DNA of 64,000 bases, taken from contig OX485808.1 in assembly GCA_950295325.1 (NCBI GenBank), forward strand, positions 37,099,180 to 37,163,179, in the 5' to 3' direction. A program made the position numbers and the translations under genes. Under the pieces are notes generated by a model that saw nothing but the letters and a program-made list of their open reading frames with translations, was not told the origin of the DNA and made no database searches. This stretch comes from Polytrichum commune. Taxonomy: Eukaryota; Streptophyta; Polytrichopsida; Polytrichales; Polytrichaceae. Shown here piece by piece: positions 10,093 through 54,379 of the stretch (position 1 is its first letter; every line of letters begins with the position of its first letter).

Positions 10093-11052
10093 ATGATGGA
10101 GGCATCGGACGACGAGGTTTCCCACTCAGGAAGCGAGGAGGAGGAGAGCGACGACGATGAAACCCCTGTAACGGAAGCCCGCAAGGACGCCATTTACAAT
10201 GTAATCGGCTTGCACGAGAAGCTGGAGGACATGGGATGGCCAGACGGCATAGACTGGATGCACTCCCTGTCTCTCGACTACAACCACGAGGGGCCACCAG
10301 TGGACGTAAACGACGACCTAGGGCGGGAGATGTCTTTCTATACACAAGGGTTAGAGGCAGCCCGGGAGGCATACCTAACCTTCCAAGCAAGAGGAGTTCC
10401 GTTTCTCCGCCCCGCGGATTACTATGCTGAGATGATTAAGAGTGACACTCACATGTTGAAGGTGAAGGATAAGCTGCTGTTTCAGAAGAAGATGATGGAG
10501 GAGTCTGAGGAGAGACGGAAGCAGCGCGAGGCTAAGAAGTTCGGGAAGGAAGTGCAGGCTGAGAAGCTCAAGGAGCGAGCTAAGCAGAAGAAGCATGATA
10601 TCGAGAGCGTGAAGAAGTGGAGAAAAGGGAGGAATGATTCGGATTATGCTGATGGTGAGGATCAGTTCGATCCTGATGCTGAGCGGCCTGGAAAGAAACA
10701 GAAAATTTCTGCTTCCCCTTGGGATAGGTCTGGTGGTAAAGGTAGGGGCGGGGATGAAATTTCCTCCCGTGGCAGAGGTGGAGGCAGAGGTGGAGGAAGA
10801 GGAGGTGGCAGAGGTGGTAGCAGAGATTTTAAGGATAAGAAGTTTGGCAATGGTGGCAGGAAGGGAATGATGAAGAGGAACACGGCAGAATCGGCTGCGG
10901 ATGAAGGCAGCTTTAAGGCCAGCTTCAAGGGAAAGAGTATGGGAGGTAGAGGTGGAGGCAGGGGTAGAGGAGGAGGCGGAAGAGGAAGAGGGGGAGGGGG
11001 AAGAGGGGGAGGAAGAGGAAGAGGTGCAGGCAGGAGTAGAGGGAGAGGGTAA
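10093..11052 (+). CDS. EBP2: rRNA-processing protein EBP2 homologue
   Basis: EBP2 is a nucleolar protein needed for pre-rRNA processing and 60S ribosomal subunit assembly. This single-exon ORF of 319 residues starts at the first of two adjacent ATGs (10093; 10096 is possible). The N-terminus is acidic (EEEESDDDE). The conserved EBP2 core follows, with MSFYTQGLEAAREAY, PFLRPADYYAEMIKSDTHM and a basic coiled coil through AEKLKERAKQKKHDIESVKKWRK. The tail is very glycine/arginine-rich in two blocks (about residues 225-250 and 280-318), resembling the RGG domains of nucleolar RNA-binding proteins. The reading frame is intact, and telo-boxes upstream support a ribosome-biogenesis role. The opposite strand is also open across the GGN-rich tail; that is a composition artefact. 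Confidence 0.93.
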   Translation: MMEASDDEVSHSGSEEEESDDDETPVTEARKDAIYNVIGLHEKLEDMGWPDGIDWMHSLSLDYNHEGPPVDVNDDLGREMSFYTQGLEAAREAYLTFQARGVPFLRPADYYAEMIKSDTHMLKVKDKLLFQKKMMEESEERRKQREAKKFGKEVQAEKLKERAKQKKHDIESVKKWRKGRNDSDYADGEDQFDPDAERPGKKQKISASPWDRSGGKGRGGDEISSRGRGGGRGGGRGGGRGGSRDFKDKKFGNGGRKGMMKRNTAESAADEGSFKASFKGKSMGGRGGGRGRGGGGRGRGGGGRGGGRGRGAGRSRGRG

Positions 11053-27924: not shown

Positions 27925-28048
27925 CAATATTGGTTGTATGGGTAGTTAGGAAATTGATGGCATTTATGTATGATAGGACTTGAAGATGTAAATTGCTCTA
28001 AATCTCATGGCATTTGTCCCTTGAGATCTAGAAGCAGTTTGGTGAAGA
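27925..28048. repeat. Direct repeat, copy 1 (copy 2 at 29065-29190)
   Basis: Both copies contain ACCAATATTGGTTGTATRGG, GATTGATGGCATT, ACTTGAAGATG and CATTTGTCCCTT(K)AGATCTAGAAG. The copies are ~1.1 kb apart and in the same orientation. They may be remnants of paired LTRs, but clean ends were not found. Confidence 0.5.
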
Positions 28049-28675
28049 CACGGGTAGATCACTCTAAGGCATTTTTGTGCATCACGTGCGGCTAGGGGTT
28101 TTTTGTTTTGGGGCTATTTACCTTCAAGGGCTAAATTAAAGCCTCCCTAAAATTACTTAAATTTTAAAAATGGCCCATTTGTTTGCACCCTTCCATTACT
28201 TATATTGTCCAAGTCACTGCAATTTTTTATACTCTATATTCCTTTTAAGTAATAAAAGCTAATCTACTTCCTAACGCAATTGACGAGTGTTGAGGGAAAG
28301 CATGGAAACAAAGAAGGGTGCAAATAGTAATACCATTGCAAACAGAGTTATGAAGAAAACACATAGGAGACCATAGCAAAGTAATACCATTGCAAACACT
28401 ATTATGATGAAAAAACATAGGAGATGCCATCACAAATATACATACCATACTAAACATACCTTCTAGGATCTTTATCTTCAACACCTATATTAATTCTACA
28501 AAAAAATAATGGCCCACGTTTTATGTCCATCTAACTTACTTATAATGGGATTGTCTACATTTAATGGCCCCTTCATTATTTGGAATTCCTTTATAATTTT
28601 TATTTCAGATGATTTTAATCCTCTCTATATTATGCCGCACGTCGTTTTTAAAATGCACTAAGTGATCTACCCGTG
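28049..28675. mobile_element. MITE family X, copy A, hAT-type, 627 bp
   Basis: Perfect 15-bp inverted repeats CACGGGTAGATCACT are flanked by a perfect 8-bp duplication GGTGAAGA (28041-28048 and 28676-28683). A second copy lies at 44762-45310. Copy A has an extra internal duplication around TAATACCATTGCAAACA that copy B lacks. Confidence 0.92.
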
Positions 28676-28683
28676 GGTGAAGA

Positions 28684-30094: not shown

Positions 30095-30478
30095 GAACAC
30101 GTAGCCCCTTAGTCTGCTGGCCCACCGGTAAGCTTAGTCTGCTGCCCAACCGGTAAGCTCGTCTGCTGCCCAACCAGTAAGCTAGTCTGCTGCCCAGCCG
30201 GTAAGCTTGTATACTGCCTAACCGGTAAGCTAGTATGCTGCCCAGCCGGTAAGCTTGTATGCTGCCTAACCGGTAAGCTAGTCTGCTGCCCAACCGGTAA
30301 GCTCGTCTGCTGCCCAACCGGTAAGCTCGTCTGTTGCCCAACCGGTAAGCTAGTCTGCTGCCCAGCCGGTAAGCTTGTATGTTGCCTAACCGGTAAGCTA
30401 GTCTGCTGCCCAACCGGTAAGCTTGTATGCTGCCTAACCGGTAAGCTAGTCTGCTGCCCAACCGGTAAGCTCAGTCTG
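30095..30478. repeat. Minisatellite, 24-bp unit, about 15 copies
   Basis: The unit contains CTGCTGCCCAACCGGTAAGC, with variant types (GTATGCTGCCTAACC and CAGCCGG forms) alternating in a partly ordered pattern. The length is a multiple of three, so a minus-strand ORF (30051-30461) of 8-residue repeats such as AYRLGSRL stays open across the array. I regard that ORF as a by-product. Confidence 0.92.
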
Positions 30479-34660: not shown

Positions 34661-34879
34661 TAAAGGTATTTATCGCCATACATAGTAGAATTGAAGCATC
34701 ACTATAATTTCCACTTTGTTGTATACATCATATAACACTATATTCGTTAAATTGAGACTTTTTGGGCATTTTGAGACATTCACATAAATAAGAACAAGGA
34801 TAAATGGAACACATATTGGAGAAAGTTGTAAGATGCGAACACTTTGTGTCGGGTATTTAGAACAAGAACCCCATTAATA

Positions 34880-35175
34880 ACTCATATTTGGGATTGTTTA
34901 GGATGAGCAATCCAAACCTTAGGCCAAATTGAAGGGGAAATCTTAAAACATTCATATTATCGCACACAAAATATGAGATCTTGTATGAATATGTTTTAGG
35001 TAGGGCACTCCAAACCCTTAGACCATATTGAAGGGGAACTATGTGAACCAATATAATATAACATACAAAATATTCCAAACTCATATTTGTGATGGTTTAG
35101 TTAGGGCAATCCAAACCTTGGACCATATTGAAGGGGAAATCATGTGACACTTATATTATTGCAAAAAAAACATAC
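34880..35175. repeat. Three ~100-bp tandem repeats containing degenerate palindromes
   Basis: Units near 34880, 34990 and 35092 share CATATTTGGGATTGTTTAGG-like and TCCAAACCTTRGRCCATATT segments. Each holds a worn version of the 37-48 kb palindrome (GTTTAGGTAGGG... CACTCCAAAC style). They lie just beyond the 3' end of the minus-strand gene at 35282. Confidence 0.65.
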
Positions 35176-35281
35176 AAAGTATGGCATGTAAAATGCATAG
35201 CATGCTAACACCACACATACATTGGATAGTGCGACCCAAAATGATGTTGCCTATGGCCCAAAACCCTACGCCTACTATGGC

Positions 35282-36219: not shown

Positions 36220-37032
36220 TCAAATGAGCTTGTTAAATTTCGCGTGAGAGAACAACTCTCTGTACAAATGGTCTCGTGGATCCAAGTATCTCTCGCCTAT
36301 CGGATTATTCCTAACAAAATTGTTTACAGGTAGTCCGCTTCCCCTGAGCGCCTGGAGGTATTTACTAAGGTCTAACAAAAATCGGTCCTGGACCTTCTCG
36401 ACCGTCCACGTAGGGCAAACTATTAAGTTGGCCGTCGGGTTCAACATGTTCTTTGCGGCGCTGTCGTCCACCATGAGCGTGTTCTCCCGGGTGGGACGGA
36501 CGTCGTAGGGGACACCTATCAATGACGGACACTGGTCCCAAAAAATGGGCTTCAAGACCTTGAGGTATTGGGGGGAAGCGGGGTTGTTTGGTTTTTTGAC
36601 GGCTTTGCCGTCCGGTGTGTACAATATTCTACAGGCTTCCTGTGCTAGGACCATGCAGGGGGGCTCGATGCCCTTGAAGATGAACTCCACGACTGCATTG
36701 GTGTTCTCGGCCTTCATGGAGCTCCACACGACCACCCACCATCGTTGTTGGGTGATCTGGAGGAAGGTCCGAAGCCACGGGCGGAGGTGAACTAGCTTGC
36801 TCTTTATGAACGTGGGCGGCCCGTCGTAATTCGCGTCCTCGGGCTTGCAAAAGGGCACCGTGGGGGTCCTCGGGCAATGAACGCATTGGACGAGGACCCC
36901 GTTGAGGTCTAACACCAGGAACCGGGTCTTAGGCGGCAAAGGTGGAACGGGTAAAATGGGGGGGACCATCGCGCTACCTTCCTCGCTTCTTGGAGAGGCC
37001 CGGCGGGGAGCCGCGACGCTATGCTCCGATCC
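36220..37032 (-). CDS. FCP1/NIF-type HAD domain exon of the ParB-like/HAD gene
   Basis: The exon begins after acceptor CTCCACAG in phase 0 and runs to TGA at 36220. After a short basic/proline linker it encodes a HAD phosphatase fold of the FCP1/NIF (CTD small phosphatase) type. Visible motifs are FLVLDLNGVLV (motif I), WWVVVWSSMKAEN, FWDQCPSL and TLMVDDSAAKN (C-terminal acidic motif). Classical members have DLDET/DLDGT; here the second Asp is Asn (DLNG). Plants have a known group with DLNG, and loss of the acid/base Asp may lower or abolish phosphatase activity. The exon matches in phase the donor GAG|GTAATA at 37514, which ties it to the exon ending at 37515. It could instead belong to a separate gene that starts internally at ATG 36969. 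Confidence 0.75.
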   Translation of the reverse strand, partial: GSEHSVAAPRRASPRSEEGSAMVPPILPVPPLPPKTRFLVLDLNGVLVQCVHCPRTPTVPFCKPEDANYDGPPTFIKSKLVHLRPWLRTFLQITQQRWWVVVWSSMKAENTNAVVEFIFKGIEPPCMVLAQEACRILYTPDGKAVKKPNNPASPQYLKVLKPIFWDQCPSLIGVPYDVRPTRENTLMVDDSAAKNMLNPTANLIVCPTWTVEKVQDRFLLDLSKYLQALRGSGLPVNNFVRNNPIGERYLDPRDHLYRELFSHAKFNKLI

Positions 37033-37470
37033 CTGTGGAGACGAGCGACATAAGGCGGGGGAAGACTATGTCATGCTATGTCCACTTAAAGTGAATACAA
37101 TATTTTCTGTGAAAAATACAAGAACCACTATGCATAGGCGGCCATACAAATGCAAGAGGGAAAAATATACATTTGAACACGAAAACAAACATAAGGGCAC
37201 AAAATAATAATTTTATTGTTTGCAATGCTCTATGTACAAAATGCCTAGGGGTGCGAAGCCGCGTTGAACGATCCGTTCAAACTATCCTAATTCAACATCT
37301 ACAAAATTGTGTGCACGCCTCCAAGTTCGAGTAAAATCGTGGGACGGGCGACGTTAGTGATCGTCGCGGGGGGGGGGGGCTGAAGGGATGCGAGAGCGGA
37401 TGGACGGGGTGGGGGCAGTTCCTCCTAGCTAGGGGGGACACGACCACGGCAACAAGACAATAGACCAGGA

Positions 37471-37492
37471 GTTTGGGTCGAGCGACCCAAAC
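37471..37492. repeat. Single palindrome unit in intron
   Basis: One complete unit (arm GTTTGGGTCG, centre AG, inverse arm) lies in the putative intron between exons 37515-39019 and 36220-37032. Confidence 0.9.
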
Positions 37493-37514
37493 TGAGGAGG
37501 TCTCAGTGTATTAC

Positions 37515-39019
37515 CTCTCCCTGGTCATGCCTGGACGCCATGGAAGCCTCCACCGCCTCCGCTTGTCGTTCTCTCTTGCCACCGCCTTCTCCGACGATGT
37601 CAGCACCCCTCTCCTGCAAGCGCTCAGTGTCAGGACCTTCTCCTAACCCAACCTCCGCATGTGCATCATGCATAGGTTCATCGATTGGGATAGGAGTAGA
37701 GGTATCACCAGGCCCTCGAGGACCTTCAACATCAGGCATGGGTGTGTCTCTTTCAGACCCATGCTGGTCCATTGAAGACTGAGCGGTAACGGGGTTTGGG
37801 TCGGCCGACCCAAACTCTCGTGCATCATGAGATTGGCCTTGTTGCACTGTAAGGGGGGGGGGGGCGGGTTTGGGTCGGACGACCCAAACATGTGGGGGTC
37901 GTCCTGCTGATGGGGCAGGGGGATCACCAGGGGCGGCCGAAGTGGTGGGGGGGTCACAGGTCTAGAAGACCCGGGAAGACGCCATATATTGGGGTCATCC
38001 GCTTGTTGAACCGGCGGATACGGACGGACGTGGGGGGGAACCATGTGCTGAAAGCTGAAGGAGGATTGCGGCACGGGCTGCGGAGGAATGTTCTGGGGAG
38101 GGAAGCCGGGGGGCAAGTGTGGAAATGAGCCCGGGGGAGCCACCACCAAACCCTGCGCCCACATGCCTCGAATCACTTGCGTGATCAAGTCCGCACTAGT
38201 TGGAGGTTGCGCCAATGCCCGCAGTCGCTCTTGCTCCAATAAGAGAGCCCTTAGTTCTGCCACTTCGTTCCGCACTGAGGGTTCTTCAGCAGCGGCCTTT
38301 TGCAAGCGGACGCGTTGTTCTTCGTCCCTTAACATCTTCTCGTTGGCTTCTTGCACGGTGAGGACTTCCGGCTTCACCTTCACCATCCCTGCGAAGGCAC
38401 CTGGAGAGGGAGGGTCCGACCTGAGCCGTTTCGCGAGCTCCATGTCGTCCTCGTCTTCGCTGCTAATGGCAATTGTCTCCTCGATGGCATAGTCGCCATA
38501 GAGTTTCTTGCCTTTTAGTTTCCTCCTCTCCCTGAACGCGGCAGTCGCATCCCTGGAGTACATGTCGCGGGCATCATCAACCGTCAGGACGGGCACCAAC
38601 TTACTTTGTGGAGTTGCTACCCGCATTGCCTTCTTTCGTTGAGGGGCTTCAGATTCCTGAGTGAAGCCTGTTCCCCCTTCTTCGACCTCGCCCTCCACTT
38701 TAGCCTCTTCTTCCTCCTCTTCCACCTCCTCATCCTCCTCCTCCTCCTCCCCCTCCTCGTCACGCGGTCGCCGAGAGGATGTGCCTGGATGCACTTGGAC
38801 CAGAGGCTCTGGTACAGCAACTGGAACCCTTATGGCCAACTCTTCAGGGTTGACACGCCTCGCCTTATCCAGCGGGCTCTCACCCCCTTCAACAGTCTCC
38901 TCGGCGTAGCTCCCAGGGATCCAGTCTAGTATATCCATCTTCTTCGCCAATGATTTTTGGGCCTTGTAGAATTGGATGTCATTAAGGTCTACATAGCTGT
39001 ACACGTTCAGCCCTAGCAT
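37515..39019 (-). CDS. ParB-like/HAD gene: acidic and proline-rich central exon
   Basis: The exon starts after acceptor TTCTGCAG with MLGLNVYSYVDLNDIQFYKA and is open for about 390 codons. It contains a strong Glu stretch (EEEEEDEEVEEEEEEA), a coiled-coil-like segment (EANEKMLRDEEQRVRLQKAA) and a long Pro-rich region (HLPPGFPPQNIPPQPVPQSS). Near 37849-37860 a run of twelve C residues breaks the frame. The following open frame ends in DQGE and a good donor (GAG|GTAATA at 37514), so one or two extra/missing C in that run would restore continuity. Two palindrome units sit inside the coding sequence (37794-37815, 37868-37889) and encode FGSADPN and FGSSDPN. No domain with known function was recognised in this exon. 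Confidence 0.6.
37794..37889. repeat. Two palindrome units inside an exon
   Basis: Units at 37794-37815 (centre GC, a perfect palindrome) and 37868-37889 (centre GA). Both lie within the open frame of the central exon. Confidence 0.9.
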
Positions 39020-39118
39020 CTGCAGAAATCCCACCGGATGTTATTATATGGCATAACATGTGATTCCACCGAAAAGGGGAAGTACATACAAGACCTAATA
39101 TCAATTGCAAAGGTTATA

Positions 39119-39212
39119 GTTTGGGTCGAGCGACCCAAACTAGCATCAGTGTTAGTTTGGGTCGAGCGACCCAAACTAGCATCGGTGTTAGTTTGGGTCG
39201 CTCGACCCAAAC
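39119..39212. repeat. Three palindrome units in intron, 36-bp spacing
   Basis: Units start at 39119, 39155 and 39191, separated by TAGCATCRGTGTTA. The third is in the opposite centre orientation (CT instead of AG). Confidence 0.95.
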
Positions 39213-39239
39213 TATGAAAACAATTATGGTAAGGAGTTA

Positions 39240-40278
39240 TGACCGCCGGTGCAACAATGTAGTGAGACTTAGACACCGCATACTCAGGCTGCAATTTCCT
39301 CACAATTTCATACACCTGCTCTGCTCTCCTATCCTCTACTATCCACAGCCACATATCGACCTCCCTAAGCTTAGGGCTTGCATACTCCACGAACTTCGAC
39401 ATGAAGGGCTCGTAGAAGGGTGTACCCATTGTGCCCTCAAACGTACTCCCAGGAATGCTCCGGAAGTCTATTATACCAAAGGGGAACCGGTCCGCTGCTC
39501 TTACTCGTATTTCTTTCCTGGAATCAAGGTCGGGCCATCCCTGGATTTTAATAGGGTCAAAAGCGACAAGGTTGAAATGCGCATCCCCCTCAAAACTTAC
39601 AATCTTCTTCTCCTTTATAAAGTTTGAGAAGGCACGCGTCGAGTGTTCTGGAAGAGCCAGGTTCTTCCCACCCTTCACCAGTTTTGACTTTAGGAAGTCT
39701 TATCCTGCCTCCCTGATCAGAGCTGCCATGGATGCACTGGTGAAGTTGTATTCAGCCTTGAACGCTCTCCAGTTCACCTCGTTCACCTCGTTCACCTCGT
39801 CATCGACAAAAATGTTCTTTTCCGGGATTAGCTTCTGCAGCTCCTGGACGATCGTTGTTTTCTTCTTCCTATTCTCCGCCCATTCCTTCATTGTGTAGCA
39901 TGAAGGAACAAAGGATTTCGGCTTGGTGAAGATTATTTTGGGGTACACCCAAAATCTCTTAGGGGTCGGGTTGTTGTGCAAGATGTGCGTTGCCGCCTTC
40001 CCCATTTCCGCCTCCGAAAGACCCTGCAGACTTCTAAAGAATTCTCTCATGAGAGGCTTCATCGCCTTGAATCGAGAGGACGAGTTGAAGAGGTTGCATG
40101 TGTCAGGATCCATGAGATCCCCTGTCTCGTGTTTCTCAAACACTGTCTTCCACTTCTGCCAAACCATGTCGGATGATGTAATCAAGTAGATCTCTCCTCT
40201 TAGCTCATTGTACTTCTTTTGCTTGTGACTTGAATTGTCAATTGAGGAGAACTTGTTTATCATTTGGTATTTGAAAAG
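39240..40278 (-). pseudogene. ParB-like/HAD gene: second exon, with in-frame TAA
   Basis: The exon starts after acceptor TGCAG at 40279 and is in phase 0 with the exon ending at 40672. It encodes LFKYQMINKFSSIDNSSHKQ and KTVFEKHETGDLMDPDTCN. Later come PKRFWVYPKIIFTKPKSF and FPFGIIDFRSIPGSTFEG. An in-frame TAA at 39700-39702 interrupts it, with the same frame resuming as DFLKSKLVKGGKNLALPEHS. CAA-to-TAA is the simplest explanation. The 3' boundary is uncertain (candidate donors near 39240-39290), because the frame stays open into the palindrome-bearing intron. No known domain was recognised. Confidence 0.55.
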
Positions 40279-40386
40279 CTGCACAAGAGCATAGAATGCG
40301 TGTTAATTCTCAATATGTTGTTTCCAAACAAAGAAGAAAAATGATGAACAACAAACTGCGTAGACAAACACAAACTAAAACACAAG

Positions 40387-40648
40387 GTTTGGGTCGAGCG
40401 ACCCAAACTGTATGAAGAAACACAAGGTTTGGGTCGAGCGATCCAAACTGTATGAAGAAACGCAAGGTTTGGGTCGAGCGACCCAAACTGTATGAAGAAA
40501 CGCAAAGTTTGGGTCGAGCGACCCAAACTGTATGAAGAAACCCAAAGTTTGGGTCGAGCGACCCAAACTGTATGAAGAAACGCAAAGTTTGGGTCGAGCG
40601 ACCCAAACTGTATGAAGAAACCCAAAGTTTGGGTCGAGCGACCCAAAC
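40387..40648. repeat. Seven palindrome units, exact 40-bp period, in intron
   Basis: Units start at 40387, 40427, 40467, 40507, 40547, 40587 and 40627. Each is followed by the spacer TGTATGAAGAAACRCAARG or a close variant. All have centre AG. The array fills most of the intron 40279-40671. The regular period and near-identical spacers indicate tandem amplification. Confidence 0.97.
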
Positions 40649-40671
40649 TCTATTTGAGAAACAATGCTCAC

Positions 40672-42000
40672 CTCCCACTTTGGATTCTTATCTTTTGCAT
40701 TCTCCCTTTCCTTGGGAGGCCGGCCGTAGAACTCCCACACATCCCGCGATGCCATGATGTTCCTAATCCAAGAAGCTTGATATGCCCGCTTCTTGTTATT
40801 CATGTTGAAATAGCGGGAGATATCGCTCAGCCGGGTTTCGTCGTCCGACCACACGACCAATGCCTTCCATACCTTCAATTTTTCCTTTAGACCATTAGGA
40901 TCATTCCACTCCGTCATCAGTTGAAGTTTCTTTGAAGCTTCAACACTGTGCTGACCGTCAATCAGCCAAAAATCGCCTTTCTCTATAGAAGGCCACATAT
41001 CCGGTGTAGGCATTCTTTTGTGTCCCTGAGGCATGACAACAATAGTCTGCCTATCATGTTTAAACTGGTCGCTCACCATCTGGGCGATTAACCAATCAAC
41101 ATACGCATCTTCCTTTGCCCGAACGCACTTCTCTGGTGGCGCTAGGTGGCATTGTGCGATGTTGACATCAAACTTGAATTCTCTGCCCATGAAAAAACAA
41201 TGTAAACACTTGGTGTCGAAATTGTTGAGTATTTTCTGGATCTCCGATGGCTCCACTCCTTCCCCGGGCTTGGACATACGTAGCTCCGGTGAAACAGGCT
41301 TATCTGTCATGGCAGATACTGACTCTCTCGGCCTCTTAGATGGTGTCGTCTGCCGGCTTTGTGATGGCGTCGGTGTTTCACTATCAGCAGGAGTTGCCGT
41401 AGGTGTTGTTCTCCTCGAGTCAGCTGGAACCGGTCGGGGCTTCCTCATTGTTTGAGGTCTTGACGACCCTGCGCCCTCTTCAACAGTCGCCTTGCGCCTC
41501 ACAGCTTGTTGAGATTTTGACTTGCTTTGCTGGGTCTTGTTTATTGCGTTGATTGCCTGCTTAAGTTTAGTGAACCTGGTTGCAACCTTCGTGTTTGAAA
41601 TGATCGCATCTATGAAGATTGTATCCGGTTTAACAATGTCTGGCTCAGCGCAGGATTCCTTCACGTATACCGGATCGAATGGCTCGGCTTGCTCATACAT
41701 GAACATGTGCACATTTTCCAGAGAAGAGTTTTCCAGGATGACGTCAACGTGCTCTCCTAGAGCATGAACTGATGCCACCTCCCATCCCGTCAAAGCATCC
41801 CATGTGTGTTGCTCCTCCGTGCCAACCTTCAAAACAAGGAGGATTTTGAATTGAGCTGCCTTTACTACAAGAAAGGACCATGCAATTACAATGTCTTCTT
41901 TTGCTACGTAGGATTGGTTTTTAGGAGTTTCGTGCTCCTGCCAGATCGCGTCTGGTGCCGGCTTGAACTATCGTTCTCCAGGTCTTTTCTTGGGGGGCAT
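40672..42000 (-). pseudogene. ParB-like/HAD gene: first coding exon with ParB-like DGQH domain
   Basis: An ATG at 42000 lies directly after an acceptor-like CTTGCAG and opens MPPKKRPGER. An in-frame TAG at 41968-41970 follows, after which the same frame is open to the donor GAG|GTGAGC at 40671. The middle is a Ser/Thr/Pro/Arg linker (TPTATPADSETPTPSQSRQT). The C-terminal part contains VDWLIAQMVSDQFK, QTIVVMPQGHKR and FWLIDGQHSVEASKKLQ, then LSDISRYFNMNNKKR. The DGQHxxEAxK motif after an IVV-type strand resembles ParB/sulfiredoxin-fold domains that bind or cut DNA. This assignment is by motif only. If the TAG is real, translation would need a downstream start. Confidence 0.6.
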
Positions 42001-42024
42001 CTGCAAGTAGAAATACATATGTTA

Positions 42025-42904
42025 GTTTCGGTCGGGCGACCCAAATTCTTTCAAATCATATAGGCTTATGTCTGGGTTTAGTAACATTTATATATGGGGT
42101 TACTTTTCACAGGTTTGGGTCGAACAACCCAAACCTGTGCCTACAATGGCTAATGAATAATATATTATTTGGCTACGAAAACCAATCTTTAAGTTCATGG
42201 ATACAACAATCATCACGAGCTACTGTTCTAGTTGTGGGTCATTTCATTATTGCTTGGGTGTTTGAGTTGTTGTTTATAAGTGTAAGTATTGTTCGTAAGC
42301 AGTAAAAATTTACGCAGAGTTTGGGTCGTTCAACCCAAACTTTGTAGCGGTATGGAATGATCGGCTATGGCCTTAGATCATACCCAAGATGATGATTACC
42401 TAAATTATGAATTACCATTTCATGCGCTGTTTGGGTCGAACGACCCAAACTCTGCAGATGGATTGGGTCGAGCGACCCAAAGCATGTGCTAGTTTGGGTC
42501 GAGCGACCCAAACTCTGCAGATGGATTGGGTCGATAGGGTTAGATATTCACCCAAGATGATGATTAAATTAATTATAAATGAACATTTGATGCGGAGTTT
42601 GGCTAAACCCTAGACCCAAACAATGCTTATGGTTTGGGTCGAGCGACCCAAACTCTGCAGATGGATTGGCGCCCACGACCCAAACCATCTTTAGAGTTTG
42701 GGTCGAACGACCCAAACCATCTTTAGAGTTTGGGTCGAATGACCCAAACCATCTTTAGAGTTTGGGTCGAACGACCCAAACCATCTTTAGAGTTTGGGTC
42801 GAACGATCCAAACCAGCTGGAGAGTTTGGGTCGCTCTACCCAAACCAGCTGCAGAGTTTAGTGTTTTAGGGTTTCAAACTGAAGTTTGGGTCGTCTCTCG
42901 AAAC
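42025..42904. repeat. Palindrome array upstream of the ParB-like gene (~14 units)
   Basis: Complete and partial units start at about 42025, 42113, 42319, 42429, 42464, 42492, 42631, 42697 and onward to 42882. A run near 42690-42800 has centre AA and spacer CATCTTTAGA. Some units have compensating arm changes (AACAACCC, TTCAACCC). The array lies in the presumed 5' region of the minus-strand gene. Confidence 0.9.
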
Positions 42905-44760
42905 ACTTTTGATTCCAGAGACCTTTATAATGTGTTTACGCAGCATATACAATGCTTATGCATTGTAGATGCTGCGAAACTCTAAAGAAATTGACACACA
43001 TAAAGAAGTTGAAGAAATCACCTTGCTTTGCAAACTACACAACAAGCTGCTGTTGGAAGCAGTTCTAACAAGCTAGTCTTGGAAGCTGATTCTAGAAAGG
43101 ATTGGATATCAGAAAACTAAGAACGCCTCACAAACATTCACTCTGAATTGAAGAAGCTTTCACAAACATTCACTCAGAATTAAACAATCCCTCACAAACA
43201 TTCATTCTGAATGTAACAAGTGTTTACAAACATGAACAAAAAAGCTATCTGAAGGCCACACATGCACACTGATTTTCGAACAATCATTCTAATTCCGAAA
43301 TCACTCTACACTCACACATGAATGTTTCTAAGACCAGGAAGAACTGACACAACCACTTTGAAACAACACTCACACTCCAAAACAACAAAGACGTTCTGAA
43401 ATGGCTAAAATGTATAGACTTTAATACAAAAACAAACCCTAAACTCATACTACACTCAGAACTCGGTCAATGCGCACTCAATGAACAACAAAATAGATCA
43501 AAAGAAGAGGAGGAGTGAAAGAGAGAATGAGATAATGATGAAGAGGGAAGGAGAGAGGGAATGCGAGTTCGACAAGGAGAGAGAGAATGCAAAGGAGGAG
43601 GCGGCGCTTTCAAGAGCGGCGGCGCCTCCAGAAAGTATGAGGAACGTACAAAGGAGGAGGAGCTTGGAGCGGAGGAGAGAGAAGGAGAAAGTGCGGAGGG
43701 GAGAGTGAAAGGGGGAAGGTCACTCAAGGGCGGGACCCATTCGGGCCGGCGCCTTTCGTGTCCGTTCGGCTCATGGCCGCCACGTGTCACGGGGCGCTCC
43801 ATGGCCCAAACGAATACACAATCTAAGCCATTGGAGAGCCCCAGGCCCATCGACGGTCGATAGGCCTCGCAGGTGGGTATCCTTTAGCCACCTATCCCAT
43901 ACCATCCTTGAGGATACTAAAAAACCTTTATAGCCTAAGGTTTTTAATTTAATGGTCCCCCGATGGATTTGCTAATATCAAATAATGAAACTGTATTGGT
44001 TTTGTAATTTTAGTAATCTACACATATGCATGAATCGAGAATGATAGATACTAGACTAAGAGGAGTATTTAATAATTATATTGCAATCCTCGTAGGCAAT
44101 TACATAATGGAATAATATAACTATGGTAACCATTTACACAATGAATGGTTTCGAGTTATATATTGTAATTATCTATGAAGGTTGTTGGTAAAGGACAATG
44201 CTATAGCCTACGATGGATCCGTTAACACATACCATTGAACTAAATCTAATTATACAAGTTTATGTAGTGTCATTCATTATAATATGGAATTATGCAATAT
44301 TAAGTGTTGACAACTTAATATCATTGTTGTTTGCGAAAAGCAACAAAGATGTTGTTTGATTTATAGCATGATGGAACATTAACATACTTATTTACAAGTT
44401 TACATATTTATGAGATACAAATATATTGAAGCGGGTGTTTTTGCTGAAGAACCCAATTAAGAACTCATATGAAGATGGTTTAGGTAGGACGACCCAAACA
44501 TTAGACAATGTTGTTGTTGTTCATATATTTAGTTGAGACAAGATAAAGTCTACAAATATTGAATATAGTGATAGTAAATGAGAGAAGCACCATGTATACA
44601 AATATGAAGCTATCAAATACTAATATGTGGAGTTCAACATTATATGAAGCCATTTAAGCAATCACTTTGTTGTTGGATGATCCCTCCACATATATTAAAC
44701 AACATATCTTATTAGGAAATGAGGCACAAATTACAGTAGATGGTGTTCTATATGGAAGCC
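42905..44760. other. Intergenic between divergent genes, with GA-rich tract
   Basis: A GA-rich stretch at 43490-43720 keeps plus-strand frames open (43481-43708) with low-complexity R/E protein; I do not call it a gene. A repeated motif TTCACWCWGAATTRAA lies near 43135-43215. A worn palindrome (GGTTTAGGTAGGACGACCCA) is at about 44471. Confidence 0.5.
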
Positions 44761-44761
44761 A

Positions 44762-45310
44762 CACGGGTAGGTCACTCTAAGGCATTTTTGTGCACCACGT
44801 GCGGCTCAGGGTTTTTTGTTTTGGGGCTATTTACCTTCAAGGGTTGAATTAAAGCCTCCCTATAATTACTTGAATTTCAAAAATGGCCCATTTGTTTGCA
44901 CCCTTCCATTACTTATATTGTCCAAGTCACTGCAATTTTTTGTACTCTATATTCCTTTTAAGTAATAAAAGCTAATCTACTTCCTGTTAAGGGAAACCAT
45001 GGAAACAAAGAAGGGTGCAAACAATAATATCATTGCAAACAAAGTTATGAAGAAAACACATAGGAGACCATAGCAAACATTATACTAAACATACCTTCTA
45101 GGAACCTTATATTCAGCCCCTATATTAATTTTACAAAAAAATAATGGCCCACATTTTATGTCCATCTAACTTACTTATAATGGGATTGTCTACATTTAAT
45201 GGCCCCTTCATTATTTGGAATTCCTTTATAATTTTTATTTCAAATGATTTCAATCCTCTCTATATTATGCCGCACGTCGTTTTTAAAATGCACTAAGTGA
45301 CCTACCCGTG
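44762..45310. mobile_element. MITE family X, copy B, hAT-type, 549 bp
   Basis: Perfect inverted repeats CACGGGTAGGTCACT. The 8-bp duplication is GGAAGCCA (44754-44761) against GGAAGCAA (45311-45318), one mismatch. The interior is highly similar to copy A at 28049-28675. At TIR position 10, copy A has A and copy B has G, and both ends agree in each copy. Confidence 0.92.
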
Positions 45311-45334
45311 GGAAGCAACCCTGAACAACTACGA

Positions 45335-45380
45335 GGGTGTAGGGTGTAGGGTGTAGGGTGTAGGGTTTAGGGTTTAGGGT
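45335..45380. repeat. Interstitial telomere-like repeat
   Basis: Four GGGTGTA units followed by three TTTAGGG units, about 17 bp beyond the right duplication of MITE copy B. TTTAGGG is the usual plant telomere unit. Confidence 0.9.
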
Positions 45381-46470
45381 ATATAAATGTGTCTTGTTGC
45401 ACTCGAAGCCATAAATGAATGGCGCATAGGTCAAATGAGGGGGCCAAGTCGCTTGTGGTTCTAAAAACAAATGTATATAGATATCACAATAGTCTAATTC
45501 ATGAACATGAACGTTGGTTACATTTCATGTTATGTTTGTTATGTATGTTATGTTACGTCGTAGATGCGTTCATATTTAGTGTATAAATCTCTAAATATCT
45601 TATTTAGTGTAGTGACACTAGAACACACCAACATGTATTTAAGGACATGTTCTGCTCAACTTGCATTGAATAGATACAACTATATATGTTTAGATTTTTC
45701 ATCAAACATTTGTTAAAACAAATAAAGTTGACTACATTTTTTTTGGCAAGCCAAATCAATAAAAACTATAGGTACAAAACACAACTACAATAAGTATGAT
45801 ATTTAGTGTTTGATACACTAAATACAAGTGAATACACAATATATCAATAACCATATGAAAGTAATAAACATTAAATATAAGCTATAGTAATATGTGACAT
45901 TGACATGTTTGAATTTAGTGTTAGTAAGGATGTGAAAAGAAGAAATATACGTGAGAGTAGAAGGTAGCAACACATTTACTTCTAACACTAACTGTCATAG
46001 GATTGAAAATTAATGTTGAGCATGTAAGGGTGGTAACCATAGTCCGCCAAGAGCCTAAGGCTAGTGTAAATGCAGCCTACAAAATTTGTGACTTAGCCTA
46101 TAAAATTTTGAAAGTGTAGGACAAAGAGCCTATGGACAATTTTAAAACATAGGATATCAACCTATGTGGTAAAAAACATGTAGGAAATTTTGCCTACAAA
46201 GTTTTTAAAAGAGCGGATTTTAGCCATTCATCCTTCTTCAAATTGGGAAATTAGTTGGCCTAAGTACATATCTTTAGGCTAATACTCGGGGCTCTTGAGT
46301 GGCACATAGGCGGATATCAATAATAGCCCTGACTCCCTCCCCGTCGATCTTTACAAATACCACAGCCCAAGCCCCATCACCGCATAGAGGTTGAATCAGA
46401 AGATGGTGAGGACTTTCACCCTTAAACTCATTTGAATTTTAGCAACCTTTCATAACTTATAATCAACTCT
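45381..46470. other. Intergenic, AT-rich, with local repeats
   Basis: Between 46020 and 46240 there are repeated phrases around GCCTACAAAATTT and AGCCTATAAAATTTT. No gene was recognised. Confidence 0.4.
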
Positions 46471-46477
46471 TTAAAAA

Positions 46478-46546
46478 AGAGTTGGTTAATCCTTGGCCTT
46501 CAAACGTGGTGAAGGGCTTAGCCAGGTTCAATTCCTGCCAAGGATA
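46478..46546 (+). repeat. tRNA-like head of a possible SINE
   Basis: AGAGTTGGTTAATCC resembles a D-arm/A box, and GGTTCAATTCC is an exact match to the tRNA B-box consensus inside a T-arm-like stem (CAGG/CCTG). The anticodon arm is not convincing, so this is not a functional tRNA gene. It could be a tRNA-derived SINE head. Confidence 0.4.
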
Positions 46547-47250
46547 CCACTTAGTACTCAAATTTTGAATTTAAAGCCTACAACATTAAAAGATATGAAG
46601 GATTTTAACCTACTAAAAATTAGTTTTAAAGGCAATTGGCAGGTAACTTAAAAACTCAAAAGGTTTTCAACTTACAAAAATTTGATATTGTAGGATGCAA
46701 CCTATGCCATGAGGGAAATAACCTATGCCCTTTTAAAGAGGTAGGCAATTAACCTCAATAACTTCGAAAACTTTTCGGACACTGGTGGTAACAACACTAC
46801 ATATAATCAAATCCACACATCATATTTTGTGTAGTTATTTAATAGCGGAATTAAGAGGTTAGTTGTCCAAGGTCATTTGATGGTTGGCGCCACGAAGAGG
46901 CAAGCTAAATATGGATGCTCTATTACCAACAAGAAGCGGGAAATTCTGTCAGAAGGTTTGAACTTAGGTTTAGGGTTTACGTTCGGGCGGGAAAGGGATC
47001 CAAAGAGGAAGGCCAAGGCGGAGGCGGGTAGTATAAAGTACCAAACCCCCCAAACTTTGCTCCTTTTTTCTCATCTCTCCATTCTGAAATGGTTGCAAGC
47101 TCTCTCAAGTAGTGGTGGAGTGCAAGGTTCGTGTATGCATCCGTTGATGAGTAGCTAATTACAACAGCCATGCACGGCCTGAATTCTTCCAATTAGTATC
47201 CACGTAGCTGAATATGGAAGATTACCGCAATTTAAGGCGGAATTTGCGGA
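46547..47250. other. Upstream region of the DUF7869-type gene
   Basis: Repeats of the 46.1-kb type continue to 46760. A short plus-strand ORF (46877-47158) has no recognised domain. Promoter elements were not identified. Confidence 0.35.
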
Positions 47251-47252
47251 AT

Positions 47253-48201
47253 GTTTGGGTCGCTCGACCCAAACCCACCCCCATAGTGAGGTTTGGGTCG
47301 AGCGACCCAAACCCACCCCTATCACGGGCTGGGCCTGGATTAGCAAGCCCATCCTGTCACGAGGTTTGGGTCGCTCGACCCAAACCCACCCCCTCTCACA
47401 GGCTGGGCCTGGATTAGCAGGCCCATCCTGTAACGAGGTTTGGGTCGCTCGACCCAAACACACCTCCATTGTGAGGTTTGGGTCGAGCGACCCAAACCCA
47501 CCCCTGTCACGGGTTGGGCCTGGATTAGCAGGCCCATCCTGTCACGAGGTTTGGGTCGCTCGACCCAAACCCACCTCCATTATGAGGTTTGGGTCGAGCG
47601 ACCCAAACCCACCGCTATCACGCGCTGGGCCTGGATTGCCAGGCCCATCCTGTCATGAGGTTTGGGTCGCACGACCCAAACACACCTCCATTGTGAGGTT
47701 TGGGGCGAGCGACCCAAACCCACCCCTGTCAGGGGTTGGGCCTGGATTAGCAGGCCCATCCTGTCACGAGGTTTGGGTCGAGCGACCCAAACCCACCCCT
47801 ATCAAGGGCTAGGTCTGGATTACCAGGCCCATCCTGTCACGAGGTTTGGGTCGAGCGACCCAAACCCACCCCTATCAAGGGCTGGGTCTGGATTACCAGG
47901 CCCATCCTGTCACGAGGTTTGGGTCGCTCGACCCAAACACACCTCCATTGTGAGGTTTGGGTCGAGCGACCCAAACCCACCTCCATTGTGAGGTTTGGGT
48001 CGAGCGACCCAAACCCACCTCCATTGTGAGGTTTGGGTCGAGCGACCCAAACCCACCTCCATTGTGAGGTTTGGGTCGAGCGACCCAAACCCACCTCCAT
48101 TGTGAGGTTTGGGTCGAGCGACCCAAACCCACCCCTGTCACGGGTTGGGCCTGGATTAGCAGGCCCATCCTATCACGAGGTTTGGGTTGCTCGACCCAAA
48201 C
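47253..48201. repeat. Palindrome array, 18 units, upstream of the DUF7869-type gene
   Basis: Eighteen units are spaced by about 38 or 73 bp. Short spacers read CCACCTCCATTGTGAG. Long spacers carry a second, unrelated palindrome (GGGCCTGGATTAGCAGGCCC) and CATCCTGTCACGAG. Centres are mostly AG or CT. Both strands stay open because stop codons are absent from the unit, giving peptide repeats such as VWVERPKP and FGSSDPN; I do not treat these as genes. Confidence 0.97.
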
Positions 48202-48393
48202 CCACCCTCATGCACACAATGGGGATGTGCATAGATGGATCCTGAATAAACTGTTGTGCGCTCCATCTTTTTGGAACCCATCGATATAATATTCATACAA
48301 CATGTGTTATGATAAGGTTTCTGTGTTTTTCTATTGGACCCTATAGCTTTTGTCAATTCTTTACAAGGTTCCATGTTCATGTGTGTAGGCAAA

Positions 48394-50925
48394 ATGGATG
48401 GGTATACTGGAAGAGGGTATTCGTCTGGAGAAGACATGGCCACTTGGCCATCTGTATCTGAGGAAGAGCTAGACATTGTCGGGGAGGCTACTATGGATGA
48501 GAGTTCAGATGAAGAGCATTTCGATATACCTTCGCGTTCTGTACCGGACTGTCCCATTCCAGAGTGTGCCGTGCTTTCAAGAGCTTCATGGATGAATTTG
48601 GATGTGTTACTTCTTAATGACAATGGGGTTGTTGTGGCGGAGGGTATCTGTCGTAACACCCATCCACAAGATTGCATTGATCAAAATCCGCTTGGCACCG
48701 AGGACGTTGGGATTGTCATATTGGAGTCACTCGTTCCTTCTGAGGTGGATCCCACTCATAGGTTCTCCCTCCGCAGGTGGCCATTGAGGAATGTCACGAC
48801 TGATGGAGTTAGCTTGCGTGAACATGAGCAACGACACATGTAACTCGAAAAGGAAATGCAATCAAACATGCGGCCACGCAAGGGTCAAAGAAAGTACGAT
48901 ACTGTGGCACGTCCTTCTCCATCTGCAACTGATTGTAAACGTCAAAGGCTGCTTGGGGAGGAGTCCATAAGAGAAGTTGCCACAAAGGATTGTTGTGTGC
49001 ATTGTTGTTGCCAATTGTTTCCAAGGGATAAATTGAAGGCCATCCGTGAAGAAATGTGGCTTGGAGATTTTCGTCTAAGATCCACAAAAAAACTTGATGT
49101 CCATAGGGCAATACATGTGAATGGAACGGGTCGCAAGGTAATCACCATTGAAAGCATAGACGTGTGTTGTAAGGCATGGTACACCATTTACGGTGTGTCG
49201 AAGGCGGACTTCTATAGACAAGTTACTTATGCCAAGGAAGGCCGCCGGTCCCGTCACCATGGGAACGTGGGTTTAAAGAAACCTAGGGAAGCAACAAGGC
49301 AAGCAACGGCAACTCTAGCAACCATCATTGTCCCCCTTGCTGATGCAATGCCGCACAAAACACGCACACTCACAACCGGTGAAAAGGTTGTGGAGAAAGT
49401 TCTTCCCACAGGCACAAAATGGAAAGACATATTGTTGGACGTTAATGCAGTTGGCGAGAAGATTGGGTTGGAGCCAATTTCATTGTCAAAATTAAGTGCA
49501 ATCAAGAAACAAAACTTTAGCGAATACATTACAAAAAGACGAGGGGACAAATTTGCCAGGTGCTCTAATTGCGAGAAGTTGAAGCGCCTCCGGGATGCAC
49601 ACACGATGGGTACCGAGTCATATGCAGCGCATCAATTGAACTATTTCAAGCACGTAAACATGCAAGAGGCACACCGTAATGATTACTACACAAATAGAGC
49701 TTTGTCCATCTCCAGGCCCTTGGAGGTTCTTACGGTCATCCATGACAAAATGGACCATGCCAAAACAGCCTCCCCATGTTTTGCAAATCGAATCAAGGCC
49801 ACGGATGGGTTTTTTAAGTTGCCTGTATCGGTTACAGGTGAACTTCGAAACAATGTCATGACATACCCTAAATGTTGTGGTTTTTTATTCCGTGATGTAC
49901 TGGAGAACATGGATTCCTTCATAATGGTTTATTCATACATAGATGCTAATCACGTTGGGTTGGCATTGCAGGAATGATTGCACATGGACACGGTGATGTC
50001 AAGTTTGCTTATTATGCTCTTGATTTGTATCCAACGGATTCAAACCACACGATAGGATCATTTGCAAGGCTTTTACGTGATTTAGAGAAACCACCAGCCT
50101 ATTCTTCAGGATTGTTATTTGAGAACACGGGTTCAACACCTTTATATGAAGCGGTGTTGGATGGAAAAGATGTATGCTTGCATTCGTTGCCCGAGCCACC
50201 CAATGAACCCGTGATTGCCAAGAAGTTGCCTCCAACTTTGCGTGTCCAATTGGACAATTGTGCCAAGGACAATAAAAGCAGATATGTATTTGCATATTGG
50301 TCGTTGTTGGTTGCGAAAGGCATTTTCAAGGAGGTTTTTGTGTCCTTCCTATTGGTAGGCCACACGCACGATGATATTGATGCATCTTTTGGGCGGTGGA
50401 GCATGAAGTTGCGGGAGGAGGATTTTCCTACAATCCCATTATTGATGAAGTCGTACATGGATTTGGAGAATGTTCCCGTCATCCCCCATATGATTGAGGA
50501 GGTGCCAGACTTCAAGGCATTTATAGAACCTTATATTCGAAGTGGAGCTCACCGATTGATCGGGCATACGAAGGCACAACAATTCCGGTTCTACATGCGT
50601 GACGATGGTGTCCCGGCCATGCAATACAAGTTGTTGTGCACGACACAAGACTGGAGCCCGCCGGAGGGTCTTCTTGTGTGGCGCGTGGATGCGGATGGGA
50701 AGACCATGTTACCGGATGGGGAGCCTAGCCCTTGTAAGCCAATAGCCATGAAGAATTTGGAGGATATTTTGAAAGGTATATCAGGCTTCATACAATATTG
50801 GGAGAGTTTGAAGATAGCGGATGTTGGCGGATCATGTTGGCATCGTTATGGGAGTTGGATACATTATTGGACACGTGTTCGTGCCGCCTTGGTAGACCTC
50901 CACCAAGATAGCCCTCATACTTTGA
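48394..50925 (+). pseudogene. DUF7869-type (transposase/integrase-like) gene, 5' part
   Basis: The start ATG 48394 follows an acceptor-like TGTGTAG. The first 149 codons are acidic (DESSDEEHF). An in-frame TAA at 48841-48843 interrupts the frame, which continues as LEKEMQSNMRPRKGQRKYD. Conserved-looking cysteines follow (CCVHCCCQLF; FARCSNCEKL). Near 49971 the frame shifts by one base: LALQ leads into GMIAHGHGD if one G is missing. The core then has AYYALDLYPTDSNHTIGSFA, RVQLDNCAKDNKSRYVFAYW and LVGHTHDDIDASFGRW. These acidic motifs resemble an RNase-H-like integrase fold, as in the DUF7869 family of non-seed plants and animals. The frame is cut at 50925 by a solo LTR and resumes at 51904. 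A short intron instead of the frameshift cannot be excluded. Confidence 0.75.
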
Positions 50926-51898
50926 TGTCGCAACCCTTGCTAACCCCCTTAGCAATCTTGCCAATTTTCAATTCTAGCAAAGGTTACGAGCGCTAACCAT
51001 TCGCATTCCGCCATGCTAATGGTTAGCTCATCCTACCCCGGACCTTATAGTTCATAGGAGGGAACCAACCCTCCTACTTTGTTTTAGGGACTCACCCCTT
51101 AATCGGTAACCCATTCCTAGATGTGGACTTCCATCCATGGAAGTCCAATCCCATGTTGATCATCGCGTTGCCGGAGCAACACTACAACAACCCGAACCAT
51201 ACTAGGCAACTATGGCCTCACATTGGGCCAATGCCCATGGAGGCCGTGCCGTTCGGCCTCGGGTGGGTGAGGCCACACCACCTCACCCATATAAGCCTCT
51301 AGGACTTCACGCGGGGCCCCTACCCCACCGTCAACCAACCTCTTGTCTCTCTACCAAGAGTTGGGGCCAAGTGGACATTTTCCTTTAGCTGCTGGGCCTA
51401 GAACCCCCCCAGCAGCTTCAGACCATCATAACTTCCTTTTATGATGTCTGATCATAACAACCAACCACTCCATGTTCATCTACGCTTCACGTAGATGCCG
51501 ATGGACTCCTCACTTGCTCAATTTGAGCAAGCCTTGAGGAAGTTATGCCTGTTTGAACCTTGGCAGTCCCGGGAATCACTCCCAGGCACTGCTGTACCAG
51601 GGCGCTGTCCCGGGACAGCGCCCCACTCAAATGGCCATAACTCCTAGCTCACACCTCCGATTGAGGTGTTCTTGAGCTTTCTAGAATCACCACGCCATGA
51701 GCTACGCATAACTCATGGCCTTACCCTTGTGCCTCCTAATCTTCGTGGGTGGGAGGCGTTCCCAACGCCCGGGGCCCTCACCCACACTAGGATCACTTGG
51801 GCCCTCTCACCAAGGGCGCCACAAGTCCCGGGTGTCACTCCGGGGTCCCCCTTGTGCCCATGGTGTTTCGGGCACTCCTCATGGAGAGGTGCGCGACA
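50926..51898. mobile_element. Solo LTR, 973 bp, inserted in the DUF7869-type gene
   Basis: Ends are TGTCGC and GCGACA (TG...CA type, inverted). A perfect 5-bp target duplication TTTGA is at 50921-50925 and 51899-51903. No internal retrotransposon region is present, so this is a solo LTR left by LTR-LTR recombination. Removing the LTR plus one duplication (978 bp) makes the host frame continuous. It is GC-richer than its surroundings and unusually full of short hairpins, including a perfect 24-bp palindrome at 51600-51623. Confidence 0.93.
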
Positions 51899-51903
51899 TT
51901 TGA

Positions 51904-52436
51904 GGCATGGATTTTGGCCACAAACACGAGTCGATGTACAAGCTTTAGAGGCTAGTCTTTTGGGAAATGGAGAGGTTCGAGAGGAGTTTGATGTGGACGA
52001 CCATTACGTGGGGCCTGCTAGTAGTCGTCCGCCACCATCTTTCCGCATTGCAGTGGATTGTCATGAAGGATATATGCTCATTTTGCGTCCTGGAGACGAG
52101 ACATATGTGAAGCCAGTGTGGGTGGCAAGAGCTTTGTCCAAACCCAATTTTGTAACTTCCAGCCCTCATTTTCGACAAATACAAGTGGAGTACTACCGAC
52201 CGACGGCAAGGAATGAAGATGTGATTCGGCATTATACAGGCTGGGATACAAACCCTAACTTTCGGTGGAAGGTGGATTCTGAGCACGGTCCATCTTGGGT
52301 AGATACAGATTCCATATTCATAGCATGGAAACCACGGAAAAACCATAGTGGATCAGTGTCCATCCCTCAAAAGTACATAACTTTTGCAAAAGACAACCTT
52401 GCTCGGATCGCAGAAGAAGCAACCCACGTTGAATGA
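51904..52436 (+). pseudogene. DUF7869-type gene, 3' part after the LTR
   Basis: Continues the frame interrupted at 50925. It encodes RHGFWPQTRVDVQALEASLL, then VDDHYVGPASSRPPPSFRIA, LRPGDETYVKPVWVARAL, VEYYRPTARNEDVIRHYTGW and WKPRK, ending with TGA at 52436. The FWPQ, GPA..RP, KPVWVALAL-type and YRP...GWD order fits the C-terminal region of DUF7869-type proteins as I remember them. It has no promoter of its own that I can see. Confidence 0.75.
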
Positions 52437-54379
52437 GAAGTTGGTAGGATTGTGTTAGCATGATTATAGTGTAAACAGTAATTCTACGAACATATATTAC
52501 TCATATGTGTGCTCTTCAAAATTGGGGCAGAGTTTGGGTAGAACTTACGAATACTATATTGTTTTGGAGTTGGATGAATATCCATTTACTATATTTCAAT
52601 ACAAATGTGAAGTTCATTTTTTTATTAAGTTTGGGACTAAATTGTCCATTGAAAAAATATGCATTTATTACATGCACTTTGTATGTTGCAATGTCTATAT
52701 TCTATGGAGCATGCTAATAATAGAAATCATTATATATATATTTTTGGGTGAAACTTGTTTGGAGTGCTCTACCCAATGTGTTTTTGTTGATGAAATTGGT
52801 GTTGAGTGCTCTACCATATGTGCTTATGTCCGCACATCATAGGTGTGGGATATTAGAACATTTAATATATTTGAGATTGTTGACAATATAGTTTCAGGCA
52901 TCTTCATGTTGTTTGATCCATATATTAATTTGAGACTAGAGAAAGTCTCAATTTAACGAATATAGTGTTATATGTAAGAAACAACAATTGAGACATCAAC
53001 TATCTAATATTGTTGGTGTTCAGAATGTGACAAAGCTTTTTATTATAGATTGTACGCATATTCTTAATGCGTGTCAAATATTCCATGTTTCATTCAAAAT
53101 CTTACAGTTTCTAACATTCTCAAGTAATTTGGAGAACCTCCAAATTCTATTCCAAAACATTTTCATCACATGTAAGAAATAATAACATTGAAGGCGTTTT
53201 GCCGCTGTTGAAATTGAAGAACCTCTCTTTCCCCTTGATTTGATTACATTTAATAGATTCAATTTGATATTTCATCGAGGTCATCACATAGCTTCACGGT
53301 CATAAGTTATATTTGTTTCCATATTACAGGTCTACATTGATATTGAATTTTGAATTGAAATGTTTGGATTATAGTTTAGAAATAGTTGTGTAAAGAGTAC
53401 GTTGTTGACTTTGTCACACTTAGTACAAAAAGTGATTCCATAATGTGCAATCATCTTATAGGCCCACCATAATACGGTGAAAATTATAATGGTATGCATA
53501 ACATTACTCAACACTTAGTGCTCATTCAATGGGCCCTCAAAATATAATAGTCGGATGCTCAGAAAGTTGTGCATGGAGACTTAGATTTTAATTAAGATCC
53601 ATGCATCCAACTGTCATATTCCAAGGGCCCACATCACCAAGTAACACCATGTGATGCATTAGAAAGAGCAAAACAAATTTTGTATATATATATGCATGAC
53701 ACTATTATTTAGTGAAGAATGCATTTTGGTTTGTAGGAGTTTTGAATAAGGGGTCTCACACCATACAAAAGGCTTACCTTTCCAAAGAAGAGTGCGCTAC
53801 CCCCTTACCATGTAGTCGTTTATGACTAGCAATTTGAATCAAAATTTCACATGGAATTACACTAAATATAATACTTAGTGTCACTTACTATTTGGAGTTA
53901 CACAATGCTACATCTTCTTACTAATAAAGTTCATCTTTTACCAAGTAAAGATGACAATGTTCTATAATGTTCAAACAACCAATATGACCTTTGTTGAGAA
54001 AATAATGAGATATACATCAAATAGTGAGTGACGATAAATACAATATTTAGTGTAGTAATCCCCTTCCACCATTTGACTGCTTCAAGGAAAAATATTAAAA
54101 TATTAAAAAATATATACATGAATACACATATATATATATATATGTATAGATGAAAGGCGCTTAGGTCAAGAAGTTAAAAAATGAGATTAAAGTTATGTAG
54201 CATAAGAATATATAAAATTTATATAAGTTTTAGGATATGAAACTTACTAGATATACTTCATAGTTAAACCTGATAAAGACCGATTTAAATTCAATGTAAA
54301 TTTACAAATCATACCAAACATGGGGCAAACGTGTCGGCCTATCTAGCCATACCATCAAAGTGAAGTAAAAAACTCTACA
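52437..54379. other. Intergenic, AT-rich, with degenerate palindrome relics
   Basis: Half-palindromes occur at 52532 and 52755 (GTTTGGGTAG; GTTTGGAGTGCTCTACCCA). An AT microsatellite lies near 54128-54143. No gene was recognised. Confidence 0.4.

Follow-up and report, generated by a model that had tools for sequence, protein, structure and literature searches.

A 22-base-pair (bp) palindrome recurs 44 times in a 64,000-base stretch of the Polytrichum commune genome (the window; 41% G+C), around two divergent, broken genes referred to here as gene A (- strand) and gene B (+ strand), and the same palindrome is readable in translation in metagenomic relatives of gene A, which is the new observation of this work. 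Judged from sequence, the palindrome may well be the recognition site of the predicted gene A protein, so that the locus would be a broken DNA transposon of a moss, its DNA tagged for recognition by a regulator that the element itself encodes, a reading in which we place about half of our confidence. An earlier note on this DNA had described the repeat and its groupings between 37471 and 48201, its confinement to this locus within the window and the two divergent genes, and all of these descriptions were borne out.

A palindrome family confined to one locus

The unit, GTTTGGGTCG-NN-CGACCCAAAC, occurs in 44 copies with at most two mismatches between 37471 and 48201 (33 without mismatch, eight with one and three with two), to which two further copies with four mismatches can be added. 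No intact copy was found elsewhere in the 64-kb window, where we encountered a single 9-base half-site at 35232 and otherwise copies carrying 4 to 6 mismatches (34896-35220, 35618 and 52757). When perfect 10-2-10 palindromes of any sequence were counted in the window, 33 out of 35 belonged to this family, compared with a mean of 0.25 expected from 20 first-order Markov simulations of the window. Of 80 papers in the open-licence part of PubMed Central (PMC) that contain one of three short strings of the repeat letters, the 20 listed were unrelated by title, and no title among the Sphagnum papers listed pointed to this repeat.

The tandem arrays differ in period (40, 36, 32 and 38/73 bp) and the copies stand in about 12 flanking contexts, as defined by loose clustering, so that what they share is the palindrome and not one longer unit. 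Symmetry of the flanks beyond the 22 bp was also considered, where only offset 5 of the eight tested stood out (p 0.007, 12 contexts), and this was not counted. At the centre, the dinucleotide was AG in 24 copies, CT in eight, AA in six, GA in two and GC, GG, TT and CA in one each, with neither AT nor CG in any of the 44. Within 39119-39212 and 47253-48201, AG and CT centres alternate although the unit flanks keep one orientation, and this alternation without intermediates looks as if the interior had been inverted as a unit, by hairpin template switch or conversion. Base pairing is indeed kept in nearly every copy, as the earlier note had remarked, yet only because most copies are identical, since none of the 14 changed pairs in the 44 copies was compensated (nine break the pair and five give G-T).

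Distribution of the palindromes around gene A

Gene A, a member of an unnamed family, extends over 37503..42000 on the - strand, its putative exon borders being placed by splice sites and by comparison with relatives. It comprises exon 1 (42000-40672), a 393-bp intron 1 (40279..40671), exon 2 (40278-about 39244), a 224-bp intron 2 remnant (39020..39243) and exon 3 (39019-37503). The gene is decayed by two premature stops, a frameshift in exon 3 close to a run of C around 37860 and the loss of the 3' part of exon 2, about 100 codons that are present in the relative P0134.

Of the 44 copies, 42 lie outside coding exons, in the gene A introns, between the two genes and on the upstream side of gene B; counted by place, seven are in intron 1, three in the intron 2 remnant, two in exon 3, one just 3' of gene A and 31 in intergenic DNA, and none was found in the exons or the intron of gene B or in the 973-bp insert that splits it. 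From left to right, and without strand assignment, these are a single perfect palindrome 3' of gene A (37471..37492); two in coding exon 3 (37794 and 37868, together 37794..37889), which read FGS.DPN in frames matching the relative P0167, where FGSTDPN is kept at the second and the first is degraded to FGTSSSN; three at 36-bp spacing in the intron 2 remnant (39119..39212); seven at 40-bp spacing in intron 1, one of them with a mismatch (40387..40648); twelve ahead of the gene A start, several of which are spaced 32 bp apart (42025..42845); one intergenic copy with two mismatches (44478..44499), beside a 66-bp stretch at 44508-44573 that is 77% like 52906-52970; and a higher-order array of eighteen with 38/73/111-bp spacing (47253..48201), whose end lies 171 bp short of where gene B begins. 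A 99-bp tandem repeat and related pieces containing a degraded palindrome were also noted at 34879-35147, 44460-44573 and 52757, close to the inverted-repeat arms described below and midway along the locus.

The translated palindrome in metagenomic relatives

Many of the metagenomic relatives of gene A are gene calls running past the end of an exon into tails, which are probably introns. The 22-bp palindrome has three possible translations only, V-W-V-x-R-P-K, L-G-R-x-T-Q-T and F-G-S-x-D-P-N, and can therefore be recognised in such translated tails. When tails shorter than 14 residues were dropped (10 of 36 for intron 1 and 14 of 27 for intron 2), the palindrome or a close variant was present in 23/26 tails after exon 1 and in 11/13 tails after exon 2. 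Often more than one copy is found per tail, with 34 copies in the 938 residues of the 36 exon 1 tails and 16 in the 554 residues of the 27 exon 2 tails, compared with means of 0.003 and 0.002, respectively, for shuffled tails. Exceptions were kept in these counts: P0133 stops inside a half motif, the distant P0179 and P0188 show none, and P0174 and P0175 are degraded at best.

As a control, 17 gene B tails of at least 14 residues were parsed, and after exclusion of six coding ones (P0009, P0023, P0032, P0052, P0058 and P0089) none of the 11 intron tails contained the translated palindrome, and it was likewise absent from the 120 gene B relatives that were listed; a looser pattern gave a single match, WVAQP, in the gene B relative P0054. 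A pattern scan of viral contigs gave no match, no viral contig was found with P0121 and P0001, and none of 26 pattern matches in bacterial and archaeal genome contigs with P0123 was confirmed.

Among the gene A relatives, the palindrome persists down to 64% protein identity, whereas the rest of the tails shows no visible alignment, and in several of them it begins about 9 bases into intron 1. The central residue is mostly D (20/32 in the V frame), which implies a centre of AT or AC and hence that the relatives mostly differ from the AG centre of the window. On this sequence evidence, the candidate protein-binding site proposed in the earlier note is the best-supported reading of the repeat.

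Lineage-specific change of the palindrome arm

In a 35-sequence tree of exon 1, a changed arm translated as V/I-S-G/V (read as GTTTCGG, with a putative codon) was found in all four members of one clade with a support of 99/100, and additionally in P0137. Placed on the tree, this label requires two changes, compared with a mean of 4.6 after shuffling, and only 3 of 500 shuffles were as low. The 3' arm is silent in the reading that displays the changed arm. Pair 5/18 is the one pair that can be read on both arms, and in 22 cases it was G-C in 17, C-G in two and mismatched in three (one-sided Fisher p 0.073), which is suggestive, though no proof, of a symmetric arm change among the gene A relatives. 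Constraint of the copies as palindromes rather than as plain sequence, for which kept base pairing was the main argument of the earlier note, thus finds no support in the window, where no compensated pair occurs, and no more than suggestive support among the relatives, with two compensated versus three half-changed cases.

Predicted features of the gene A protein

Predicted structures of the gene A exons resemble the N-domain of ParB followed by an N6-adenine methyltransferase without the catalytic DPPW, the latter fold occupying the C-terminal half of exon 2 in the model. At the corresponding position, DF[RK] replaces the catalytic DPP[WYF] in 25/25 relatives (23 by pattern, while P0166 and P0168 read MDFRN in the alignment), and a DPP[WYF]-type tetrapeptide was present in 1/79 relatives, P0167, where it is located in a proline-rich tail. 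The methyltransferase-like part is accordingly predicted to be inactive. By sequence, no match to a ParB family was obtained in Pfam (32 relatives) or NCBIfam (P0124), and DUF1985, the homology domain of VANC, was absent from the Pfam matches of the gene A exons and of 57 aligned relatives.

Gene B, the inverted repeat and the neighbourhood

Gene B (48373..52436, +) is a broken member of the DUF7869 family (expectation value (E) 7.4e-44), and its product is putatively transposase-like. It contains an intron (49838-49971) and a premature stop at 48841-48843, where the relative P0044 has Q. Among the 120 listed of 249 gene B relatives, from a search that scored just the candidates with most words in common, those bearing species names are mosses, which agrees with the plant origin assumed in the earlier note. 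No solved structure was convincingly related to DUF7869 by sequence (one row, E 0.059). The gene is split by a 973-bp insert (50926..51898, unstranded) with the ends TGTCGC...GCGACA between two TTTGA, at a place where the relative P0004 is uninterrupted, and this insert is solo-LTR-like, that is, it resembles a solitary long terminal repeat with a 5-bp duplication.

Both genes are enclosed by a 46-nt inverted repeat with 89% complementary arms 18.3 kb apart (left arm 34716..34761, +; right arm 52942..52987, -), at which no target duplication was seen; dispersed repeats are common in the window around it. Within its span, just 3' of gene A, lies a reading frame for an NIF/FCP-type phosphatase (36220-37065, -; Pfam NIF E 3e-15), which the element may have captured or may carry as an accessory gene. 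An approximately 0.6-kb repeat, 83% identical, connects 28048-28677 with 44761-45312, the second copy lying in the A-B intergenic region. Farther away, we observed a tandem array of 15 copies of a 24-bp unit (30110-30478) and a reading frame encoding EBP2, a protein of rRNA processing (10084-11052, +; Pfam Ebp2 E 1.7e-68), which is presumably a host gene.

Discussion

The transposases of VANDAL elements are of the Mutator type, in place of which the moss locus has DUF7869. In Arabidopsis, a nine-base motif that occurs in the introns, the intergenic DNA and the non-coding ends of VANDAL21 is bound by VANC21, a protein of this same element (PMC5735166). The motifs are arrayed in tandem in the introns of VANC and VANB as well as ahead of VANA, and they vary from one subfamily to another. 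The moss locus resembles VANDAL21 and VANDAL6 (PMC5735166 and PMC10398659) in that the motif is concentrated in non-coding DNA, occurs within the regulator gene's introns and ahead of the presumed transposase gene, is arranged in tandem arrays and is present in lineage variants, and in that the second gene of the transposon is proposed as the reader of a short motif. The two differ in the protein (DUF1985 in VANC, ParB-like and methyltransferase-like folds in gene A), in the motif (YAGTATTAY compared with a 22-bp palindrome) and in that binding and hypomethylation have been shown for VANC and are proposed for the gene A protein.

This VANC-like layout, together with the coherent pairing of a ParB-like protein and a palindrome, is why we favour self-recognition by the gene A protein. 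The pairing is coherent because a protein of the ParB type, KorB, moves away from its operators by sliding along the DNA (PMC11790492); the predicted ParB N-domain fold and the several palindromic sites near the gene are reminiscent of ParB/KorB with parS/OB, whereas gene A is eukaryotic and its site is of 22 bp and of another sequence than the 16-bp OB. In the proposed model, a dimer of the gene A protein, with its ParB N-domain-like fold followed by the inactive methyltransferase-like fold, would bind the symmetric palindrome, would perhaps spread from it as ParB proteins do, and when bound would shield the element from host silencing or control its expression, as VANC does for VANDAL. A more specific version, in which a ParB plus dead N6-adenine methyltransferase protein would load at dozens of palindromes in introns and intergenic DNA in a parS-like system, spread over the entire element and shield it from silencing while site and protein co-evolve between lineages, is tentative and appears to us rather unlikely in full.

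It is unlikely, in our estimation, that the palindromes are bound instead by the DUF7869 protein of gene B, the presumed transposase, as a requirement of transposition or autoregulation. The position of the 18-copy array ahead of the gene B start and the degraded copies near both inverted-repeat arms (34896-35220 and 52757) would suit such sites, but these latter copies are the most degraded of all, and the translated motif is found in the tails of gene A relatives and not in the intron tails or listed relatives of gene B. A neutral satellite or selfish palindrome, spread by hairpin-mediated replication or gene conversion without a bound protein, could account for tandem arrays with four different spacers, for the variety of flanking contexts and for the AG/CT alternation in the absence of AT and CG centres, as hairpin inversion would give. 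We nevertheless doubt this explanation, given that the motif outlasts the visible alignment of the remaining tail, accompanies gene A and not the introns of gene B, and is changed throughout one gene A clade. The related suggestion of a hairpin-dependent mobile unit in the earlier note agrees with the diverse flanking contexts, but leaves the tie to gene A unexplained. Finally, the 22-nt RNA is able to fold into a 9-bp stem with a 4-nt loop (-13.2 kcal/mol, z -4.6) and the motif starts close to the 5' end of intron 1 in several relatives, as might be expected of an RNA hairpin controlling splicing or feeding small RNAs; with 31 of the 44 window copies being intergenic and not intronic, and with compensatory change being weak, this appears highly improbable.

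Several observations weigh against recognition by the gene A protein. Two palindromes lie inside an exon, and it is gene B rather than gene A that has the largest array next to it. Conservation was read from translations, and the intron status of the tails was inferred from alignment; moreover, the clade pattern of the arm change is not clean, as P0165 has both arm types and P0138 combines a half-changed with a standard copy. The model of exon 2 is of poor quality (mean predicted local distance difference test, pLDDT, 50), neither gene A model gave a Foldseek match at E <= 0.001, and the Foldseek list for exon 2 also contains methyltransferases of other kinds and folds that are unrelated. Gene A scored above the cut-off of no family in Pfam or NCBIfam, the one DNA-binding domain indicated being a sub-threshold HTH_70 Pfam match (E 0.05; E 0.094 in 1/25 relatives). 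The GERR-type nucleotide motif of ParB is altered to GQHS in gene A, which makes the use of cytidine triphosphate (CTP) by the gene A protein doubtful. In addition, the assignment of genes A and B to one element depends on one 46-nt inverted repeat lacking a target duplication.

VirB belongs to the ParB family. As a bacterial, CTP-dependent ParB-type anti-silencing regulator acting against H-NS (PMC10653881), it offers a precedent for a ParB-type protein offsetting silencing, although it is bacterial and is not known to take part in transposon self-recognition. Fungal DNA transposons encoding TET/JBP dioxygenases similarly carry a gene derived from DNA-modification enzymes, but there the enzyme is a dioxygenase and no palindrome array is described in the accessible text (PMC12730594). 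The N6-adenine methyltransferases MTA1, M.MboIIA, CcrM and METTL3 have the fold that the model tentatively suggests for the C-terminal half of gene A exon 2, with the difference that their DPPW/Y corresponds to DF[RK] in the gene A family. In the open-licence part of PMC, we found no literature on DUF7869, none on a ParB-methyltransferase protein that a transposon encodes in a plant genome and none on ParB with moss transposable elements, the matches to the last being two bacterial papers; a search there for Spm/TnpA likewise gave no paper.

If the proposed recognition is true, transposons would have invented sequence-specific self-recognition on two or more occasions, each time with an unrelated protein, and in a land plant a fold known from bacterial partition proteins would have been recruited for this task. 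A protein-site pair with natural lineage variants would then be useful for asking by what means mobile elements evade silencing, and it might also serve targeted work on epigenomes.

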